From contig PAAG01000047.1 of assembly GCA_002698785.1 (NCBI GenBank), positions 1-64,000 of the forward strand: a stretch of 64,000 nucleotides of DNA, read 5' to 3'. The notes beneath the pieces are model-generated. The model made no database searches. It was given only the letters and a program-made list of their open reading frames with translations, and was not told the origin of the DNA. Both the position numbers and the translations under genes were made by a program. Below, in pieces: positions 10,847-13,903 of this stretch. This DNA comes from Verrucomicrobiales bacterium. Lineage in GTDB: Bacteria > Verrucomicrobiota > Verrucomicrobiia > Verrucomicrobiales > DEV007. Position 1 is the first letter of the stretch. The number at the start of each line of letters is the position of its first letter.

Positions 10847-12076
10847 ATGTTTGTCGATCATATTAAAATTCACGCCAAAGCCGGCGACGGCGGGAACGGC
10901 TGTTCCAGCTTCCGCAGGGAGAAGTTTACCCCAAAGGGAGGCCCCGACGGTGGAGACGGAGGCCGCGGAGGCGACGTCATCCTCGTAGTCGACCAGCACA
11001 CCGACAACCTCAGGGAGTTCTTCTACAAGCCCAACTACAAAGCGGAACGAGGCGTTCACGGCCAGGGCCAGCGCAAAACCGGACGCTCCGGGAAAGACCT
11101 CATTCTAAAAGTCCCCCCCGGCACCATCGTCTACCAGACACAACCACCCGAGTCGAAAAAGGACCCCGACGAAGAAGATTTCCTCGTCGACGAGGCATTC
11201 ACCGGCGCCGATTGGGCCGGAGAGTTCGTTGAAGACACCGAAGGCACCATGGTTCTGATGGACCGAACCATGGATGACGAAGACGAGGAAGGAGAACTCG
11301 ACGAAGACGAAAACCCTGCCGAGGGCGAGCTGGAAGAACATTTCGAAGACGAGGAAGAGCCCGAGAAAAAGGGCTACGGCGAAATCATCGCAGACCTTAC
11401 GACGGTCGGAGAACGATTCGTCCTGTGCGAAGGCGGAGTCGGAGGAAAAGGTAACTGGAACTTCCGTACCGACACCAACCAGGCCCCCATCGAATTCACC
11501 CCCGGTGAAAAAGGCGACGAGGGCTGGTACTATCTCGAGTTGCGACGCATCGCGGACGTGGGCCTCGTCGGATTCCCAAACGCCGGAAAATCCACCCTTC
11601 TCCGCACACTTTCCAACGCCACGCCAAAAGTAGCCGCCTACCCCTTCACAACCCTGAAGCCCATGGTTGGCATCGTCGAATTCCCCGGCTTCTACCGCGC
11701 CACCGTCGCAGACATACCGGGACTCATCGAAGGCGCGCACGAGAACGTCGGCCTCGGACACGACTTCCTCCGTCACATCAGCCGCTGTTCCGTATTCCTT
11801 TTTGTCGTGGATACTGCCGGCGTCGATCAGCGCGACCCTATCTCGGACATTCAGATTCTCCGAAAAGAACTCCGCCTCTACGACGAAGAACTCGGCGAAC
11901 GAGAATGGCTGATTGTCGCCAACAAAGTCGACCTCGAAGAATCTCAGCTCTACCTCGAAGCCCTCAAGACCCGCTTTCCAAAGCAGGAAGTCTTTCCCAT
12001 CTCCGCCGAGACCGGCGAAGGCCTCGAAGCCCTGAAAAAGCGCTTGTGTGAGATGGTGGGAACACGTCCGGGCTAG
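10847..12076 (+). CDS. obgE: Obg family GTPase with an acidic insertion
   Basis: A 409-residue Obg/CgtA GTPase, a ribosome-associated protein involved in 50S maturation and stress response. The glycine-rich OBG fold (residues 1-100: KAGDGGNGCSSFRREKF, GGPDGGDGGRGGDV) is interrupted at about residues 101-178 by a stretch dominated by Asp and Glu, then resumes with IIADLTTVGERFVLCEGGVGGKGN. The G domain has P-loop GFPNAGKST (242-250), DIPGLIEGA (289-297) and NKVD. There is no long C-terminal OCT domain. The insertion is in frame and has the same codon style as the rest, so it is not a frameshift. The ATG start aligns with the family N-terminus. Confidence 0.95.
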   Translation: MFVDHIKIHAKAGDGGNGCSSFRREKFTPKGGPDGGDGGRGGDVILVVDQHTDNLREFFYKPNYKAERGVHGQGQRKTGRSGKDLILKVPPGTIVYQTQPPESKKDPDEEDFLVDEAFTGADWAGEFVEDTEGTMVLMDRTMDDEDEEGELDEDENPAEGELEEHFEDEEEPEKKGYGEIIADLTTVGERFVLCEGGVGGKGNWNFRTDTNQAPIEFTPGEKGDEGWYYLELRRIADVGLVGFPNAGKSTLLRTLSNATPKVAAYPFTTLKPMVGIVEFPGFYRATVADIPGLIEGAHENVGLGHDFLRHISRCSVFLFVVDTAGVDQRDPISDIQILRKELRLYDEELGEREWLIVANKVDLEESQLYLEALKTRFPKQEVFPISAETGEGLEALKKRLCEMVGTRPG

Positions 12077-12146
12077 CCACCAACCCGGAAAACAAATACC
12101 ATTGCCTTCCCCCCCACCCTGCGCTAGACTCCGCGCCAGTTGGCAA

Positions 12147-12215
12147 ATGGATCGCTTTTCCATTATTACGATTATTAGCAACGCAATCATTATTGGCACT
12201 GCCATTATTGGCTGA
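12147..12215 (+). CDS. Isoleucine-rich leader peptide of cimA
   Basis: A 22-codon ORF from ATG (12147) to TGA (12213-12215). It begins MDRFSIITIIS and ends TAIIG; nine of its 22 residues are Ile (eight ATT, one ATC), with no Leu or Val. It sits 119 bp before the gene for citramalate synthase, the committed step of the pyruvate route to isoleucine. Known precedent: leader peptides rich in the end-product amino acid control ilv, leu, his and trp operons by ribosome stalling. A Shine-Dalgarno site is weak at best. The peptide probably has no function beyond sensing charged tRNA-Ile. Confidence 0.75.
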   Translation: MDRFSIITIISNAIIIGTAIIG

Positions 12216-12250
12216 GAGAGCCAGGTGATTGCGAATCGGTCTTTTTTCCT
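12182..12250 (+). promoter_or_regulatory. Putative transcription attenuator upstream of cimA
   Basis: CGCAATCA (12182-12189), inside the leader ORF, is perfectly complementary to TGATTGCG (12226-12233). A smaller hairpin, TGGCT (12209-12213) with AGCCA (12219-12223), spans the leader stop codon, and a run of six Ts follows at 12242-12247. Mutually exclusive pairings around an Ile-codon-rich ORF, ending in a T-run, are what an attenuator needs. The exact terminator stem is not clean by eye; the 8-bp pair is separated from the T-run by 8 nt. Confidence 0.55.
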
Positions 12251-12334
12251 GCCAGAGCTTACCGAATCGGGATCGCCCCCTTCCCCGGCACGATTTCCCC
12301 TTTTGACCTTTCACTTTTTTCACGGCCCTGACTC

Positions 12335-13903
12335 ATGAGCGAATCCCCCGATGTAAAACTGTATGACACCACCCTGCGAGACGGCACCCAGGGTGAAGGA
12401 GTAAACTTCAGCTCAGTCGATAAAATCCGCATCGCCAAGGAATTAGACGCCTTTGGAGTCGACTACATCGAAGGCGGTTGGCCTGGTTCCAATCCCAAGG
12501 ACGTCTCCTTTTTCGAGCAGGCCGTCGACGTAGACTGGAAAAGCGCAAAGATCGCTGCCTTCGGATCCACTCGCCGAAAAGACACCCCGGTCGAAGACGA
12601 CATCCAGGTCAAAACCCTTCTCGATGCCAAAACTCCGGTCATCACCTTCTTCGGCAAAAGCTGGCGCCTCCACGTCACCGAAATCCTCGGAACGACAGAA
12701 AAGGAAAACCAGGCCATGATTCGCGACACCACGCGATATCTGAAAGAAAATGGCCGCGAAGTCATCTACGACGCCGAGCATTTCTTCGACGGATACAAAG
12801 ATTGTCCCGAGCACGCCCTCGCCACCCTCCTGGCAGCCAAAGAAGGCGGCGCCGACTGGGTCGTCCTCTGCGATACTAACGGCGGCACCATGCCCCACGA
12901 AGTGGCAGAGATCACCGACGTCGTGATGAAAAAAGTCGGCCTGCCCGTCGGCATCCACACCCACGACGACACCGGAGTGGCCGTGGCCAATGCACTCGCC
13001 TCCATCCGTGCCGGAGCTACCCAGATCCAGGGCACCATCAACGGCTACGGAGAGCGCACCGGGAACTGCAACCTCACCACCGCTATCCCCAACCTTCAAC
13101 TGAAAATGGGGCACCCCCTCGTTAAGGACATTTCCAAGCTCGCCCACCTTTCTCGCTTCGTAGACGACCTTGCCAATTGCGAGCATAACGTCCGAGCTCC
13201 CTACGTCGGCGCCACCGCTTTCGCTCACAAAGGGGGAATGCACGTGAACGCAGTGCAGAAAGTCGCCCACAGCTTCGAGCACATCGAACCCCGCACCGTC
13301 GGAAACCGACAGCGCATCCTCGTCTCCGAGCTCTCCGGCCAGTCAAACGTCCTCATGAAAGCCGAAGAACTCGGCCTCCCGATTGAGAAAGGCTCCGACG
13401 AAGCAAAAGCCATCCTCGCAGACCTGAAGAACCTCGAAGAGCAAGGCTACGAATTCGAAGCCGCCGAAGGCTCCTTCGAACTGCTCATCCGAAAGCACCT
13501 CAAGACCTACCAGCCCTTCTTCAAGCTCAAGGAATACCACTGCACCTTCCGCCGCGATGGAGCAAATGATTACCAGACCTGCTCGGCGACAGTAAAAGTC
13601 ATCGTCAACGGAGAAGAGCAATACACCGTTGCCGAAGGCGACGGTCCTGTGAATGCCCTCGATGCTGCAATGCGCAAGGCACTCCGCCCTTCCTACCCAC
13701 AGATCGACGAGATGGAACTCGAAGACTACAAAGTCCGTATCATCGACAGCCACATGGGGACAGCAGCTAAGACACGAGTGCTCATCCTCAGCACCGATGG
13801 CAAAGACGACTGGGGCACCGTCGGTGTCAGCTACAATATCATACAGGCCAGTTGGCGCGCCCTTGTTGATTCTATAGAGTTTTTCCTCGCAAAGCGAACC
13901 TGA
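12335..13903 (+). CDS. cimA: Citramalate synthase
   Basis: A 522-residue enzyme that condenses pyruvate with acetyl-CoA to (R)-citramalate, the entry to threonine-independent isoleucine synthesis. It has the HMGL-like TIM barrel with KLYDTTLRDGTQGEGVNFS near the start (catalytic Arg-Asp and metal Asp), HTHDDTGVAVANAL with metal-binding His residues, and GTINGYGERTGNCNL. The C-terminal LeuA dimer/allosteric domain follows (from about residue 385: KEYHCTFRRDGAND to the end). The GEGVNFS variant of the first motif and the length favour CimA (TIGR00977 type) over 2-isopropylmalate synthase. The Ile-rich leader upstream supports feedback of this pathway. The stop is followed 5 bp later by a MITE-like element. 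Confidence 0.93.
   Translation: MSESPDVKLYDTTLRDGTQGEGVNFSSVDKIRIAKELDAFGVDYIEGGWPGSNPKDVSFFEQAVDVDWKSAKIAAFGSTRRKDTPVEDDIQVKTLLDAKTPVITFFGKSWRLHVTEILGTTEKENQAMIRDTTRYLKENGREVIYDAEHFFDGYKDCPEHALATLLAAKEGGADWVVLCDTNGGTMPHEVAEITDVVMKKVGLPVGIHTHDDTGVAVANALASIRAGATQIQGTINGYGERTGNCNLTTAIPNLQLKMGHPLVKDISKLAHLSRFVDDLANCEHNVRAPYVGATAFAHKGGMHVNAVQKVAHSFEHIEPRTVGNRQRILVSELSGQSNVLMKAEELGLPIEKGSDEAKAILADLKNLEEQGYEFEAAEGSFELLIRKHLKTYQPFFKLKEYHCTFRRDGANDYQTCSATVKVIVNGEEQYTVAEGDGPVNALDAAMRKALRPSYPQIDEMELEDYKVRIIDSHMGTAAKTRVLILSTDGKDDWGTVGVSYNIIQASWRALVDSIEFFLAKRT

Follow-up and report, generated by a model that had tools for sequence, protein, structure and literature searches.

The citramalate synthase gene cimA of this Verrucomicrobiales genome is preceded by a short, isoleucine-rich open reading frame (ORF) which, judged by comparison among genomes, is kept by selection across related Verrucomicrobiota. 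The ORF very probably encodes an isoleucine-sensing leader peptide, and our best explanation of the arrangement, which we consider probable, is ribosome-mediated attenuation of cimA that responds specifically to isoleucine. The following features lie in the window, that is, the whole stretch of 64,000 nucleotides analysed:

12102–12130, plus strand: promoter-like element (TTGCCT at 12102–12107, a 17-nt spacer and TAGACT at 12125–12130)
12147–12215, plus strand: leader ORF, ATG start, 22 codons (MDRFSIITIISNAIIIGTAIIG, then the stop codon)
12182–12212, plus strand: region 2, the 5' arm of helix P2 and last part of the leader ORF (12182–12189 plus TGGC at 12209–12212 in this genome)
12220–12240, plus strand: region 3, the 3' arm of P2 (12220–12233) overlapping the 5' arm of helix P3 (12224–12240)
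12242–12247, plus strand: T-run, separated from P2 by 8 nt and located within the P3 loop; may act as a pause site
12261–12277, plus strand: region 4, the 3' arm of P3 (ACCGAATCGGGATCGCC)
12278–12334, plus strand: C-rich, G-poor untranslated stretch, possible Rho loading site (C 0.40 and G 0.13 over 12283–12334)
12335–13903, plus strand: cimA, citramalate synthase, the presumed target (TIGR00977, 729.2 bits, cutoff 450)

The sequence-only reading had described a 22-codon ORF with nine isoleucine codons and neither leucine nor valine upstream of cimA, and the sequence, the ORF list and the TIGR00977 match bear this out. Nine of the 22 codons at 12147–12215 are ATT or ATC, with no Leu and no Val, and the ORF sits between obgE (10847–12076) and cimA (12335–13903). 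The chance rate for Ile-rich ORFs was drawn from the window and from the loci of relatives. The leader is the sole match among 1916 short ORFs in the window (12–35 amino acids, at least six Ile and at least 30% Ile), and none of 5000 dinucleotide shuffles of 12077–12334 gave an ORF of at most 24 amino acids with at least nine Ile. Among 4928 ORFs at loci L033–L112, the only Ile-rich ORFs starting with ATG were cimA leaders. As a separate observation on the upstream neighbour, ObgE has a long acidic insertion (window 11160–11380, about residues 105–176, rich in Asp and Glu), by which its family match is split into two stretches.

A CimA query was matched in 74 of 75 genomes of the family, some of these matches being only to related synthases, and the region upstream of cimA was readable in 69 family genomes. 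We called an Ile-rich leader before cimA in 57 of the 69, representing 14 of 17 readable genera and 54 distinct peptides; the named relatives are Verrucomicrobiales MAGs. The proposal of a dedicated, isoleucine-only leader for cimA thus holds in relatives, with no loss of conservation seen; upstream of cimA in the other 12 of the 69 there was no recognisable leader. A fixed rule (at least four Ile and at least 20% Ile) picked out 53 leaders among the 69 family genomes. Applied to the last 350 nt before cimA, it gave hits in 53/69 genomes on the forward strand versus 9/69 on the opposite one; the 350 nt further upstream gave hits in 5/69. The peptides vary freely yet stay rich in isoleucine (for example, MGTEGYGFISTIIIAIIIG, MSERIIIRSILIAIIQD and MQRRIIGIISSIIAG): overall, the 57 leaders are 33% Ile and 6% Leu plus Val, with the first Ile codon at a median of codon 5.

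A second family, f4, has shorter cimA leaders with a common CGAATTA core (MPSTSLQIIRIISGLLSA, MGDRPDNRLIIRISHGLIRA), and in family f2 no clear Ile-rich leader was seen before cimA. At the f4 leaders (L187–L201) we also observed a hairpin between the end of the ORF and the bases after the stop codon, whose arms change together (GGACTC/GAGTCC, GGGCTTCC/GGAAGCCC and GGGTTC/GAACCC).

The same genome carries a leucine-rich leader, MKITTLSTKILVLPLSLELVLLG, ending in a stop codon directly upstream of leuA (G000:C56, locus L002, roughly 1220–1290, outside the window). Of 20 relatives sampled, 18 have a comparable Leu-rich leader in front of leuA, and in one of the other two the region was too short to judge; such leaders were also found in 10/10 of the genomes sampled from f4 and in one genome of f3. 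In several leuA leaders, too, the stop codon lies in a hairpin loop. No leader was found upstream of ilvB or ilvD of this genome. With an Ile leader at cimA, a Leu leader at leuA and none at ilvB or ilvD, isoleucine and leucine seem to be metered separately at committed steps.

Upstream of the leader, the promoter-like element puts the predicted transcription start near 12137, about 10 nt short of the leader's ATG. Of 56 leaders, 44 have the pattern TTGNNN-N15–18-TANNNT in the 62 nt ahead of them, whereas shuffled sequence would yield 2.5; this conserved promoter-like sequence argues that the leader is probably cotranscribed with cimA. A different element was noticed upstream of cimA in relatives (for example, L017 and L015), namely a tandem direct repeat, AACCCTGTTGA-N11-AACCCTGTTGA, with a 22-nt period. 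In several genomes of the genus this repeat also lies near the starts of thiE-, pyrF- and recF-like genes (L223–L230; gene names assigned by eye); neither the window nor the reversed-pattern controls contain it. It is possibly a 5'-UTR or operator element.

The perfect complementarity that had been claimed between 12182–12189 (CGCAATCA) and 12226–12233 (TGATTGCG) was confirmed in the sequence. It belongs to P2, in which the end of the ORF pairs with bases just past the stop codon, so that the stop codon lies in the loop. Conservation and covariation of this proposed pairing in relatives were also found: across 22 aligned sequences, 11 cells had changed on both sides of P2, a number equalled by 0 of 500 shuffles, and the cross-genus test gave P = 5e-5. 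No other helix is as widely conserved as P2. A further helix, P3, absent from the earlier account, pairs 12224–12240 with 12261–12277 over 17 positions. Within the genus, 97% of P3 cells are paired, compared with 27–53% for slid versions, and the changes there are one-sided only.

In a duplex permutation of true against swapped partners among 16 divergent representatives, z was −5.6 for P2 and −5.3 for P3, each with P = 5e-5, the lowest value that 20,000 permutations can give. P3 was not found by this cross-genus test in g2, g5 and g14, all of which have leaders. An automatic alignment (A1) misplaced region 3 of distant genera, and covariation was counted on a second, mostly genus-level alignment (A2) together with the duplex permutation. 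Because P2 and P3 have the arm 12224–12233 in common, they are mutually exclusive. Another candidate, helix P1 (GGATCG at 12149–12154 with CGGTCT at 12237–12242), would close the gap between P2 and the T-run; it was 84% paired in the genus, not above shuffles, and unsupported across genera (P = 0.36), and we rejected it.

Folding of the whole leader (12140–12334) was unremarkable, with an uninformative minimum free energy z of −1.2. In constrained folding, P2 formed before region 4 was made in 11 of 11 cases, whether the ribosome was absent or sat on the first Ile codon. Moving the ribosome to the stop codon removed P2 in most cases, and a clean switch to P3 was predicted at loci L007, L017 and L123; in the window's own sequence (L001) four P2-region pairs stayed and P3 did not fold. 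Some Ile codons sit within the arm of P2, and a stall there would block it. Rfam covariance models run over 11900–12500 found no T-box or other known RNA, the only match being a chance one to a snoRNA (E 2.5).

The sequence-only reading had taken the ORF, the pairing and the T-run together as a classic attenuator layout. The Ile leader and the pairing stand; the pairing plus T-run does not fare well as a terminator, given the 8-nt gap between them (AATCGGTC), the absence of hits in a terminator scan and the patchy T-run. The T-run is present in most members of the genus and weak or missing in L005, L006, L008, L026 and L123. The scan found no canonical intrinsic terminator, and a U-tract is also absent after P3. 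Between P3 and cimA, an excess of C over G of at least 0.2 was seen in 24 of 44 family members versus 3 of 39 control upstream regions. The genome encodes Rho, with three Rho-like proteins (690, 498 and 417 bits; G000:C13, C21 and C17; L219–L221), some of which may be foreign, as the assembly has an estimated contamination of about 5%.

We lean towards P2 as the on-state and P3 as the off-state. Following this logic, scarce charged Ile-tRNA would stall the ribosome at the first Ile codons, upstream of P2; P2 would then form as an antiterminator, P3 would be pre-empted and RNA polymerase would continue into cimA. When isoleucine is plentiful, the ribosome would instead reach the stop codon and melt P2, and P3 would form as the off-state, with premature termination. 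P3 lacks a U-tract, so termination may need Rho, which in the off-state may act on the C-rich stretch before cimA. The C-rich, G-poor stretch and an encoded Rho make Rho a reasonable candidate, and we put forward its involvement tentatively. P2, with the 8 nt and the T-run that follow it, may pause the polymerase in the manner of a hairpin-type pause so that the ribosome catches up. The order of the helices fits the classical scheme of a 2:3 antiterminator and a 3:4 off-state, and the sign is right for feedback.

P2 and the T-run could instead form a terminator that the ORF overlaps, a stall on late Ile codons masking the 5' arm of P2 and giving read-through. The proposed actinobacterial ilvB leaders offer a precedent (PMC1262725), and the wide conservation of P2 above that of other helices, the T-run carried by most genus members and the similar hairpin of f4, followed by short T-runs in some members, would all suit such a terminator. 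We nevertheless consider it unlikely, as 8 nt separate P2 from the T-run and the gap-closing P1 lacks cross-genus support (P = 0.36), no terminator turned up in the scan, a ribosome stalled at the first Ile codons would leave P2 free to form, which is the wrong sign for feedback, and P3 is left unexplained. Equally doubtful is a Rho-dependent switch in which leader translation would set Rho loading on the C-rich stretch and P2 and P3 would gate the access of Rho without being terminators. The missing U-tract behind P3, the three Rho-like proteins and the frequency of C-rich, G-poor stretches (24/44 versus 3/39 in controls) speak for such a switch, but composition alone is weak evidence and the C-rich stretch appears largely unpaired in either state.

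An action of the leader on cimA translation or mRNA stability, rather than on transcription, is improbable: P3 would presumably remain in the full-length mRNA, but its end lies about 25 to 140 nt short of the cimA start, depending on the relative, and it leaves the start uncovered. Ile-rich peptides are hydrophobic, and the ORF might accordingly encode a functional hydrophobic microprotein with no role as a regulatory leader; the 54 distinct peptides keep little beyond their Ile content, and the leuA leaders are rich in Leu instead, which makes this very improbable.

Leader-peptide attenuators are known from the trp, his and ilvGMEDA operons of enteric bacteria. The cimA leader resembles these in its short ORF of regulatory codons, its alternative helices that share an arm and the biosynthetic gene downstream; it differs in sensing isoleucine only, in its target, cimA, in having the stop codon in the 2:3 loop and in a 3:4 helix without a U-tract. 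Among the actinobacterial elements described previously (PMC1262725), the ilvB leaders contain Ile, Val and Leu codons in a short ORF that, as here, overlaps a hairpin with T residues after it, whereas the cimA leader belongs to another phylum, has another target, uses Ile only and has an additional, competing helix downstream. The LEU element at leuA is a pseudoknot in which Leu codons pair with the leuA ribosome-binding site (PMC1262725); compared at the level of the ORF only, it resembles the leuA leader of this genome in placing a Leu-rich ORF before leuA. The mycobacterial cys-operon leaders have Cys codons and precede other genes, but they too are leader ORFs with no obvious intrinsic terminator, Rho being suggested and no conserved hairpins reported (PMC1262725).

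A literature search among papers available outside subscription found none that relevantly ties citramalate synthase or cimA to leader-peptide attenuation, and none, judged by titles and abstracts, on leader-peptide attenuation in Verrucomicrobia. Attenuation of this kind is classic; for cimA or for these bacteria it is likely undescribed.

It is conceivable, if speculative, that attenuation of this type is widespread in the Verrucomicrobiales, with leader translation picking between two helices in the absence of an intrinsic terminator, Rho or a U-less hairpin executing the decision, and single-amino-acid sensors placed at cimA (Ile) and leuA (Leu). The arrangement would offer a compact switch that is testable in reporters, and regulation of cimA by isoleucine would support the citramalate route as the isoleucine route in these bacteria. 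More broadly, it suggests how an abundant and poorly studied phylum may control branched-chain synthesis, through separate Ile and Leu sensors at committed steps.
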